From Pseudobutyrivibrio sp. MD2005 (lineage in GTDB: Bacteria > Bacillota > Clostridia > Lachnospirales > Lachnospiraceae): a stretch of 36,735 bases of DNA. Shown piece by piece: positions 3,994 through 36,735 of this stretch (position 1 is the first letter of the stretch; each line of letters starts with the position of its first letter). The notes beneath the pieces were generated by a model. The model saw only the letters and a program-made list of their open reading frames with translations. It did not search any database and had not been told where the DNA came from. The position numbers and the translations under genes were made by a program. The stretch covers positions 1 through 36,735 of the forward strand of contig NZ_JHXE01000023.1 in the NCBI RefSeq assembly GCF_000621865.1, written 5' to 3'.

Positions 3994-4348
3994 TTTTACT
4001 TGTGTGATTGCAAATAATGCTGTATCACAAGTAGAAAATATTTATGAAAATCCAATGCTACTTGTGATTCGACTAAGTGCAACTAACGACAAGTAGGTTT
4101 AAAACACTAGTTTTGGGAGGCTACTTGCTATTTGCGATTATTTGAGAATCACAAGTAGTTTGCTGGGTGCCGCTGTGGATTCCTACTTGCGTGAAGAGCT
4201 AATTCTTTGGACCACAAGTAGCAGAAAAATAAACTGTATAAAAACTACTTGTGATATGAAGTAATTATTGTGTCAACAAGTAGTTGAAACTGAAAAAGCT
4301 TTTGCGGCTACTTGTGGAAAAAGAGAATATTTGTAATCACAAGTAAAA
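3994..4348. repeat. Inverted-repeat array 1: 12 alternating CTACTTGTG/CACAAGTAG units
   Basis: CTACTTGTGA-type words (F) start at 3997, 4058, 4121, 4183, 4245 and 4308. TCACAAGTAG-type words (R) start at 4025, 4088, 4149, 4212, 4274 and 4337. F-to-R gaps are 19-21 nt and R-to-F gaps 23-24 nt, giving a period of 61-63 nt. Spacers are all different. The outermost words differ from the internal ones but match each other: TTTTACTTGTG at 3994-4004 and CACAAGTAAAA at 4338-4348. No Cas genes are present, and repeats of about 10 nt with alternating orientation are not a CRISPR array. Confidence 0.85.
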
Positions 4349-4578: not shown

Positions 4579-5388
4579 ATGGGAAATTTGGAGAACTATA
4601 AAAAGCAGCTGAAGGAGCAAGAAGAATATTTAAAGGCTTTGATTAAGAAGAGTGACAAGAATTTAGAAAAATATAAGGACATTCAAGACAAGAGGATACG
4701 AATATCATATAGCAACGGCTGTAAACAATTTTTAATGTACAACAAAGATACAAAGGAAATAACCTATGTTAAGAATTCAAAACAAAAAGCTGTAGCAAAA
4801 ATATTACAGCGAGACTATGAGCTGGCCCTTAACAAAAAACTTAAAGAGCTATATAAGAAGCTGGAGCGTTTTAATCGCACCTATGATTTTGAGGAGGTTA
4901 AAAGAATATATGATGATTTGCATGCCACAAAGAAAGAGCTGGTTATCCCTATGATTGAGTCTGATGAGCAATTTGTTGCAAGATGGCTTTTAGAACATCA
5001 AGGTGAGCAAAATGATTATCCAGAAGAAGCAAGAATATATACTGCTAATGGAGAGCGTGTCAGATCTAAGTCAGAAAAGATAATTGCTGATTTGTTTCTT
5101 AAATATAATGTTCCTTACAGATATGAGCCAAAGCTAGAGATTGGTAATAATCACATTATTAATCCAGACTTTGTAGTGTTAAATGTAAGAGAAAGAAAGA
5201 CTATTTATTGGGAGCACTTAGGGTTGATAGAAATGGAGAGTTATGCTGTGAAAAACCTTAAGAAAATAAATGATTACAATATAGCGGGATATGAGCTTGG
5301 GGAAGACTTAATTATTTCTATGGAAACTTCTGAGAAAGTTTTTGATTCCAGAAGAATAGAGGATCTGATAGTAAAGTATTGCATCTGA
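4579..5388 (+). CDS. Uncharacterised PD-(D/E)XK nuclease-like protein
   Basis: This 269-aa protein has no family I can name. The N-terminal half (1-130) is lysine/glutamate-rich and probably coiled-coil. The C-terminal part has the pattern RSKSEKIIAD, then PYRYEPKLEI, then NPDFVVLN, then IYWEHLG, which fits the E...PD...(E/D)xK-like core of the PD-(D/E)XK nuclease fold, with WEH in place of the usual ExK. A paralogue with the same motifs lies at 32020-32709. It stands alone: array 1 and hairpins lie upstream and a terminator follows 13 nt after the stop. A function in DNA or RNA cleavage is inferred from the fold pattern only. Confidence 0.6.
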   Translation: MGNLENYKKQLKEQEEYLKALIKKSDKNLEKYKDIQDKRIRISYSNGCKQFLMYNKDTKEITYVKNSKQKAVAKILQRDYELALNKKLKELYKKLERFNRTYDFEEVKRIYDDLHATKKELVIPMIESDEQFVARWLLEHQGEQNDYPEEARIYTANGERVRSKSEKIIADLFLKYNVPYRYEPKLEIGNNHIINPDFVVLNVRERKTIYWEHLGLIEMESYAVKNLKKINDYNIAGYELGEDLIISMETSEKVFDSRRIEDLIVKYCI

Positions 5389-23397: not shown

Positions 23398-23437
23398 GCT
23401 TTGTTATGAAGTAGTAAAAGTTTTTGATTTCGGTGGG

Positions 23438-23778
23438 GTATCGCAAAAAGTCTAAGATATAAGGCTTGCTGGAGGATTTGTGATACAGAACATGAGAATA
23501 TTGCGAAGGTGTATCACAAAGAGACGAACGCAAGAGGCATGCTGGAGGATTTGTGATACAGAATTTTAGAATATTTATAGAATATATCGCAAAGAAACGA
23601 GTATATGCGGTTTGCCAGAGAGTTTGCGATACAAAATAGAAGAATCTGCAGATTTTATATCGCAAATTGTTTGGGAGGTCGCATAACTTAAGTAGTTTGC
23701 GATAAAAATAGCTGATTATTAGCATTTCTGTATCGCAAAAAGTATTACAAGCCAGAAGTTACTGTGAGTTTGCGATAC
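23438..23778. repeat. Inverted-repeat array 2: exact 73-nt period, 10 alternating TATCGCAAA/TTTGCGATA units
   Basis: R words (TATCGCAAA type) start at 23439, 23512, 23585, 23658 and 23731. F words (TTTGCGATA type) start at 23477, 23550, 23623, 23696 and 23769. Every R-to-F gap is 29 nt and every F-to-R gap 26 nt, so the period is exactly 73 nt throughout. Spacers are largely unlike one another. F1, R2 and F2 carry matching changes (TTTGTGATA/TATCACAAA), keeping pairing. The outer words pair over 10 bp (GTATCGCAAA/TTTGCGATAC). Confidence 0.92.
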
Positions 23779-31830: not shown

Positions 31831-32019
31831 ATCCAAGTCTTATTTTCTAAGGACGCTTAGTCCTTTCAATTATTAAGTGCGTATCGCACAATTTTTCAGT
31901 ATTAATTAGTATTTATAGTTTTGAATGAAGGGAGTGTATGAGTTATAGAGGAATACTATCTTAAAAAATTATATGAAATAGATAAAGAACTAACAGAAAT
32001 AGACAATGAACTAAAGACT

Positions 32020-32709
32020 ATGCCATCGGGAGAACTAAAGGCATATACAAATAATAAATCACATCGATGGTACTATATGGATGGGAGCGCCAGGGAATAC
32101 CTATCTAGAAAAAATCGCCAATTAGCAGAAAAGCTAGCGCTAAAGAAATATCTATTGCTGAGAAAAAATGAATTGTTGGAAGATAAGAGTAACATCAATC
32201 ATCGATTAATGTTATTAGATTCTAAATGCCATGAAGAGATGGAGAAGTTTTTGAATAGTGCAAGCTATTTTGAATTACTACCAAAGAATATTAATAAGAA
32301 GGAAGATTGGCAAAATGAAGAATACAAAACAAATCCGTTATATCCAGAACAGAGAAATGTACTTTGTCCCTCGGGTAGATATGTTCGCTCAAAATCAGAG
32401 GTATTTATTGATATGGCATTAACACAGGCTGGAATACCATATCGATATGAGTGTGAATTAATACTTGGAAAACAGAATTATTATCCGGATTTTACAATTA
32501 AACATCCCGGCACAGGAATGTTAATATATTGGGAACACTTTGGAAAAATGGACAATCCAGACTACGCTAAGGCAGCCTTTAATAAGATTAGAAAGTACTA
32601 TGAAAATGGATTGATACCGGGAAAGAATATAATTGTCACATTTGAAACTAGAGATAATCCATTTACTTTTAATGAAGCCAAAGCTGCACTAGCAATGATG
32701 AAGCTGTAA
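32020..32709 (+). CDS. Uncharacterised PD-(D/E)XK nuclease-like protein (second copy, start uncertain)
   Basis: This 229-aa protein is paralogous to that at 4579. Shared core: YVRSKSEVFID, IPYRYECELI, YYPDFTIK and IYWEHFG, the probable PD-(D/E)XK-like motifs. The frame stays open back to a stop at 31939-31941, and those 26 extra codons (31942-32019) have the charged, coiled-coil look of the paralogue's N terminus, but contain no ATG, GTG or TTG. A good GAAGGGAG lies at 31927-31934, followed by an ATG at 31938 in another frame that stops after eight codons. Either an indel has disrupted the start or an unusual start is used. 32020 is the conservative ATG. Array 3 begins 14 nt after the stop. 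Confidence 0.55.
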   Translation: MPSGELKAYTNNKSHRWYYMDGSAREYLSRKNRQLAEKLALKKYLLLRKNELLEDKSNINHRLMLLDSKCHEEMEKFLNSASYFELLPKNINKKEDWQNEEYKTNPLYPEQRNVLCPSGRYVRSKSEVFIDMALTQAGIPYRYECELILGKQNYYPDFTIKHPGTGMLIYWEHFGKMDNPDYAKAAFNKIRKYYENGLIPGKNIIVTFETRDNPFTFNEAKAALAMMKL

Positions 32710-33153
32710 AACCAATATATTTAGGGGGGTTTATCGCAACGAGACGAGAGCATGCTGGGTATATGAGATTTTGCGATATGAATTCCTTTGAAAATGCTAG
32801 ATATTATCGCAATGGAATGGATACATGCGGCATTCTGGGAAGTTTGCGATAAAAAATAATAGATTTTGCTGATTTTGTATCGCAAATTATCTGGAAGACT
32901 GCATCACTACGTTTGCCTGCGATAAATTGATATGAGTAATAGATTTTTTATATCGCAAAAAGTCTATTAAGCCAGAAGTATTCGTTGGGATGCGATAAAT
33001 CCCCCAAGAACTCAAGCACCCCAAGACCTCCAAGACCGCATTGTTTCTAATGACTTACTCAGCTTTAATTGTTTTTTCACGATTTGGATTTATATTTGTG
33101 CTAAGATACGTTTTAGAGAGAGTTTTAGGGGAGAAGGAAAGGTTGAGTGACCT
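32710..33153. other. 444-nt gene-free region holding repeat array 3
   Basis: It contains array 3 (32724-33005). The remaining 148 nt before the next gene are AT-rich with TAAGAT at 33102 preceded by TG (extended -10 look) but no good -35. No gene is seen. Confidence 0.65.
32724..33005. repeat. Inverted-repeat array 3: exact 73-nt period, 8 alternating units, with terminal inverted repeats
   Basis: R words (TATCGCAAN) start at 32732, 32805, 32878 and 32951; F words (NNTGCGATA) at 32770, 32843, 32916 and 32989. Gaps are 29 and 26 nt throughout, period 73 nt. Spacers of units 1-4 can be aligned in order with units 2-5 of array 2, for example AAGCCAGAAGT in the last unit of both. The array ends pair over 15 bp: GGGGGGTTTATCGCA (32724-32738) with TGCGATAAATCCCCC (32991-33005), one G-T. 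Confidence 0.92.
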
Positions 33154-36401: not shown

Positions 36402-36735
36402 ATAATAGAGTAGGAGGCGGTGACTAACCGCCGTCCTCTCACGGCACCGTACGTACCGTTCGGTATACGGCGCTTTCAATAGTTGACGTGCACAGACTGA
36501 TAGGCTGTGGCTAAATCATAGAAGCCACTGTTTATCAGTCTTTCTTTTGTCATTGCCATGTTGACTGCGACTGTATGTGTGGTAAACCAATGTCCGCGCC
36601 GACTGTTACCAGCCAAAAGCGCCAAGTCCTTGGGCACGCCCATCTTTATGAGATTGCGTACTTTAGTTTTTGGCTTCTTCCACTGTTTCCATATACACAT
36701 ACGTATTCTGTGATAGAGCCACCCATTGATTTCGT
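36402..36735 (-). mobile_element. Group II intron, 3' part (maturase end, domains V and VI)
   Basis: On the minus strand the maturase end is followed by domain V (36474-36444): AGC triad, GCGCCGTA/TACGGTGC stem, a two-base CG bulge and TACC-GAAC-GGTA. Domain VI (36440-36408) has GAGAGGA paired to TCCTACTC with one bulged A (complement of 36411), the branch point. The 3' splice site should fall at about 36405 or 36402. The 5' part lies outside the window. Confidence 0.85.
36476..36735 (-). CDS. Group II intron reverse transcriptase/maturase, C-terminal end (cut by window edge)
   Basis: The minus-strand frame is open from the window edge: EINGWLYHRIRMCIWKQWKK, then KTKVRNLIKMGVPKDLALLA, then GNSRRGHWFTTH, ending SVHVNY. 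This is the maturase X-domain tail found at the end of LtrA-like intron proteins (W..W....R...L..LG.....A......GYW). The RT domain is outside the window, so integrity is unknown. Domain V begins two nt after the stop. Confidence 0.85.
   Translation of the reverse strand, partial: EINGWLYHRIRMCIWKQWKKPKTKVRNLIKMGVPKDLALLAGNSRRGHWFTTHTVAVNMAMTKERLINSGFYDLATAYQSVHVNY

Follow-up and report, generated by a model that had tools for sequence, protein, structure and literature searches.

Helically phased arrays of alternating DNA words adjoin a family of PD-(D/E)xK-like genes in Pseudobutyrivibrio and relatives

Repetitive extragenic palindromes (REPs) and bacterial interspersed mosaic elements (BIMEs), together with REP-associated tyrosine transposases (RAYTs), make up systems called REPtrons. 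They are described as intergenic repeats of alternating orientation and regular spacing, with the enzyme gene beside its own repeat type and gene-less copies elsewhere (PMC2817692, PMC3733652). One foot of a REP repeat is tagged with GTAG or CGTC that stays unpaired; the repeats go with a Y1 (HUH) tyrosine transposase and exceed 100 copies per genome. Here we describe a gene-array system in a 36,735-nucleotide stretch of Pseudobutyrivibrio sp. MD2005 (contig NZ_JHXE01000023.1, positions 1 to 36,735; hereafter the window), consisting of arrays of short DNA words in alternating orientation and a family of predicted nuclease genes that adjoin such arrays. One array type is named after its word, TATCRCA, and was the subject of an earlier note on this DNA.

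Like REP/BIME-RAYT systems, these arrays alternate and are regularly spaced, most genes lie beside their own array type, words are family-specific, and there are gene-less copies. Unlike a RAYT, the enzyme is PD-(D/E)xK-like and not an HUH/Y1 tyrosine transposase: the Y1 profile PF01797 has no match in the host genome, as opposed to matches in 5 of 14 control genomes, and the array-side gene lacks a Y1 domain. GTAG or CGTC, sought on either strand up to 6 nt outside the unit, accompanies just 1 of 38 TATCRCA units in the host genome, although the word of a second array type, ACAAGTAG, itself ends in GTAG. The arrays also differ from REP in their whole-turn period and in being few and long, not more than 100 short palindromes. 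The gapped-pattern search that the earlier note had suggested found the TATCRCA unit pair at 37 host-genome places (up to three mismatches; reversed control 0), a few of them isolated three-mismatch places. The exact three-word pattern is present in 9 of the 29 genomes from the genus and in 0 of 32 from outside it (control 0 of 61). With no Y1 transposase, no GTAG/CGTC foot and a low copy number, membership in the REP/BIME-RAYT class was rejected.

We consider it probable, at roughly 60%, that each array is a set of binding sites on double-stranded DNA for a cognate protein that joins an N-terminal word reader to a PD-(D/E)xK (Vsr/EDxHD-like) nuclease domain, that gene and array form a module, and that gene-less copies have spread in trans. 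Family genes are associated with alternating arrays of their own, and the words beside most paralogs differ from paralog to paralog. A grid detector (8-letter words with one mismatch allowed, spacing that varies by no more than 2, a single missing grid point tolerated) found at least five words within 1 kb of the gene for 8 of 9 host copies, for 44 of 60 copies fetched from the genus and, beyond it, for 32 of 80, these being the best 80 of at least 530 relatives. The same threshold was reached at 0 of 20 arbitrary loci from two genus genomes, at 2 of 80 loci when flanks 2-3 kb away were scanned (142 flanks of at least 400 bp), and in no Markov shuffle (0/9, 0/60 and 0/80; 0/149 overall). With at least four words the counts were 8/9, 55/60 and 47/80, against 1/20 arbitrary loci, 7/80 distant flanks and shuffles of 0/9, 2/60 and 3/80. 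This association far exceeds the controls and makes it scarcely credible that the arrays are passive, owe their spread to some unrelated transposase and have nuclease genes beside them through chance or hitch-hiking. Gene-less copies are indeed dispersed, and neither a target-site duplication nor a transposase is defined here; such repeats, however, would not be expected to have words that track the N-terminal half of the protein, and the host genome has no Y1 transposase (other transposase families were not searched).

Table 1. Arrays and family genes in the window.
Feature	Position	Strand	Description
Array 1	23439..23777	.	10 words TATCRCA/TGYGATA; five 47-bp units, 26-bp spacers; period 73
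Array 2	32732..32997	.	Four 47-bp units, TATCRCA type; period 73; order F F R R
Array 3	3996..4346	.	12 alternating words ACAAGTAG/CTACTTGT, ~31 bp apart; period 62.4 (six turns)
Orphan PD-(D/E)xK-like gene	31942..32709	+	Adjoins array 2
Paralogous PD-(D/E)xK-like gene	4579..5388	+	269 aa; downstream of array 3

The periods of the arrays are quantised in helical turns. After removal of proteins at 95% identity or more, 77 loci were left, and 74 of their arrays have periods below 95 bp that fall into four groups (32 near 52.4, 12 near 63.0, 22 near 73.1 and 8 near 83.5 bp), corresponding to five to eight turns, with none between groups; the remaining three are 96.3, 113.0 and 126.0. Tested against 10.5 bp, the periods give a mean resultant of 0.83; the best-fitting value is 10.45. 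Taking one array per protein cluster gave 0.83 (n = 57, clusters at 60%), 0.82 (n = 40, 50%), 0.84 (n = 23, 45%) and 0.91 (n = 14, 40%), compared with 0.04 for chance triples from shuffles (n = 150). A looser four-word set from an earlier detector gave 0.69 over 53 values, of which one, 68.0, was out of phase. To us, such quantisation indicates that the DNA is read as a double strand and from a single face. The earlier note had argued for selection on geometry through phased protein binding, with random spacing in relatives as the observation that would speak against it; the periods of related arrays proved to be quantised, and together with words that outlast their spacers they strongly support the argument. 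We propose that a protein oligomer would assemble through its N-terminal half on the inverted words along one helix face, and that spacing is held to whole turns, with the sequence between words freer, because the protein units would bind that one face.

The earlier note had also raised a multi-hairpin non-coding RNA or a cruciform under selection for pairing, which now appears highly improbable. The arms are complementary, the RNA is predicted to fold strongly (minimum free energy z -8.4), and the two arm positions are associated over 82 distinct units (Fisher p 0.009). However, 28 of the 82 are non-Watson-Crick at the variable arm position (54 Watson-Crick, 19 A/C, 9 G/T), and the association vanishes when four closely related loci are left out (p 0.27, 71 units). 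Rfam has no match over array 1, and helical-turn periods, which would be unexpected for RNA, recur across families with different words. The case for pairing maintained by paired changes is weak; the compensated pair cited for it spans a 26-nt spacer and does not lie within one unit.

Words are diverse, and they track the N-terminal half of the protein. The word is shared by 22 of 27 protein pairs with at least 60% identity and by none of 2652 pairs below 40%; where N-terminal identity is at least 70%, all 11 pairs have the same word. Partial correlation with the word is 0.119 for the N-terminal half (maximum of 1000 permutations, 0.086) and 0.008 for the nuclease half. Two loci, L200 in genome G012 and L242 in G020, are 93% identical in the upstream flank and 91% identical over the nuclease half and downstream flank, which marks them as the same locus. 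Their proteins are 97% identical in the nuclease halves but 45% in the N-terminal halves, and their words and spacing differ; the pair is a natural swap in which reader half and array were exchanged together. An AlphaFold model (mean pLDDT 93.8, pTM 0.62) places a helix at residues 2-25, a sheet at 31-54 and a helix at 56-93 ahead of the nuclease domain, and this part (helix, three-stranded sheet and long helix) may be what reads the word.

PADLOC profiles, fold matches and conserved residues all point to a PD-(D/E)xK-like nuclease domain in the C-terminal part. E153, P182-D183 and E198-H199, which include the acidic residues of the core fold, are conserved in 71 of 71 aligned members, a count subject to ascertainment, as the scan patterns used parts of the motif and picked 69 of the rows. 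Pfam and NCBIfam offer no fitting family, and no profile listed at E 0.01 matches more than 1 of 71 members. The nuclease domain is related by sequence to two PADLOC candidate-defence profiles, PDC-S68 (matched by 71/71 members) and HEAT_CxxC_PD-DExK (50/71). Such matches, and alleles that differ between species at one locus, would suit a defence or addiction role in which the array would titrate or license a nuclease that serves as toxin or anti-phage effector. We regard this as quite unlikely: in the member with ranges the matches lie in the nuclease part (about residues 119-247), the PDC-S68 profiles, more than 1,200 positions long, are matched only near their C-terminal end, no arrays belong to the PADLOC profiles, and the dispersal of gene-less arrays would be left unexplained. 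Compared with I-Bth0305I, which we take to represent an EDxHD/Vsr-like homing endonuclease family, the fold match spans only residues 150-255, and here an array resembling binding sites adjoins the gene. Arrays of binding sites are also borne by the ends of Tn7; relative to Tn7 TnsA and its ends, the sites described here alternate in orientation.

The family has nine members in the host genome, one to 11 copies in each of 28 of 29 genus genomes, and representatives in 4 of 32 other genomes. Public genomes contain at least 530 relatives, some of them from Butyrivibrio, Roseburia, Ruminococcaceae and Treponema. The two proteins in the window are 21-22% identical to each other. The orphan gene beside array 2 has its first canonical start codon at 32020, with homology from 31942 and an in-frame TGA just upstream, so that its 5' end may or may not be intact. 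In-frame stops were also seen in L074 (C1:161193) and in some genus copies.

Constraint on the arrays falls on words and spacing. Array 3, beside its gene, and a counterpart on contig C7, whose 3-kb locus lacks the family motif, agree at 93 of 96 word bases but at 115 of 253 spacer bases, where 30% is expected from composition. Arrays 1 and 2, in the better of two registers, agree at 64 of 72 word, 69 of 116 insert and 44 of 78 spacer bases. The earlier description of the spacers as mostly unrelated is correct only in part; the 29-nt inserts are not free in sequence and have a common core in 63 distinct units. Gene-less copies are dispersed: arrays of the AAGGTATA type occupy nine places, only one of them (C10:13832) near a family gene, and most share terminal units and vary in internal unit number. 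By eye, several (left flanks of L303, L304, L306, L310 and L311) start directly after apparent intrinsic terminators of the neighbouring gene.

Arrays are also present or absent at orthologous sites. At the array 1 spot, none of seven relatives has TATCRCA words upstream of the reductase. Three (L267, L268 and L271) have the same transporter in front, and the gap, 670 bp in the window, measures 296, 222 and 271 bp in them, with at most a chance triple given by the detector. In G013 (L269:887-1210) the gap is 828 bp and is occupied by a four-word array of another kind (TACGGGTT) together with a short frame that contains WEHxG and may be what is left of a gene. After pta, none of seven relatives has the family motif, and at most a four-word grid was found in 1.3-1.5 kb; acpS follows pta, as in the window, in six of the seven and is lacking in L293. 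Elsewhere, G022 and G009 share 1,928 bp that comprise a gene and its array, at 94.8% identity, and the flanks do not match.

The main rival is that the array is an operator only, with the protein controlling its own expression and gene-less arrays left as recombination debris. The best array lies upstream of the gene in 57 of the 77 deduplicated loci, and phased inverted sites would suit cooperative repression. We nevertheless find it unlikely, as the best array is downstream in the other 20, the host genome has TATCRCA-type arrays at 12 places and the AAGGTATA type at nine against nine family genes, and a gene-less array retains words and spacing while its spacers erode. Under the binding-site and nuclease reading, we infer that the protein binds its words, is active as a nuclease and drives dispersal. 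The nuclease domain would start breaks, as a result of which arrays would be copied, expanded and dispersed in trans, probably through nuclease-initiated copying or recombination at arrays, as is thought of RAYTs for REP/BIME. Several observations weigh against this reading: fold matches are near background level, many wider relatives have no detectable array, and no target duplication was seen. Moreover, G012 and G003 have TATCRCA arrays, and none of the family genes fetched from them (7 of 8 copies in G012, 6 of 7 in G003) has that word; for one G003 copy no word was detected.

Searches limited to the open-access literature listed nothing resembling this gene-array system. The odds seem to us about even that it represents an undescribed class of selfish element in Firmicutes and Treponema: a nuclease with a swappable word reader, together with a private phased array on which the nuclease assembles and which it disperses in trans. 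Reader and array would be exchanged together, giving new, non-cross-reacting word families in each lineage, much as in RAYT/REP but with an enzyme that is not related. If so, genomes have been colonised in a REP-like manner by way of two unrelated enzymes, and selection on bacterial intergenic repeats can act on helical phase instead of on sequence or RNA structure. A large nameless family linked to a matching DNA signal makes function testable at once, and for cracking a DNA-recognition code nature supplies dozens of pairs of protein and word, including a swap in at least one case.

Array 1 itself follows the description in the earlier note, with ten alternating words, gaps of 29 and 26 nt and an exact 73-nt period, all with zero deviation. 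Its units are ordered F F F R R, and it is a satellite array with no adjoining family gene. The window holds 70 matches to TATCRCAAA with at most one mismatch, compared with a shuffle mean of 27.2 (standard deviation 5.1, maximum 42, 100 shuffles). The unit is an imperfect 47-bp palindrome, with an AT-rich 26-bp spacer between units. The core common to the 63 distinct units, oriented by best match before its derivation, is TATCRCAAnCnAACGAAnnATGCGGCTTnCCAGACTTYTTGYGATA. Units take two orientations, most commonly in the order F...F R...R, with FRRF, RRF, RRR and further orders present. Arrays 2 and 3 were absent from the earlier note; array 2 starts about 22 nt past its orphan gene and is counted with array 1 among the 12 TATCRCA-type arrays, whereas array 3 is of a different type. 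As the earlier note had held, a CRISPR (clustered regularly interspaced short palindromic repeats) array is ruled out, since the words alternate in orientation (cas genes were not searched).

TATCRCA arrays are extragenic, with regular spacing and alternating orientation; small open reading frames overlie some, and one array overlaps the end of the preceding gene by about 18 bp. The genes that flank them are diverse (20 scanned), with the sole exception of homologous orphan genes, which adjoin arrays in the window and in G002 and, in G010, lie with an array on either side. In four species metA lies 43-62 bp from such an array (L054, L055, L057 and L022, in G003, G010, G012 and G000), so that solo arrays can evidently be retained in place. 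YhcG/DUF1016 PD-(D/E)xK genes adjoin TATCRCA arrays at L020:5616-6830 and L022:7040-8182, the latter with arrays on both sides, possibly by chance. G-runs or CCCC runs were noted by eye within about 30 nt of several array ends (window 23435-23438 and 32724-32729; flanks of L021 and L058). The single Rfam match in the window, above the gathering score, is a group II intron RNA at 36405-36475 on the minus strand, at the contig end.
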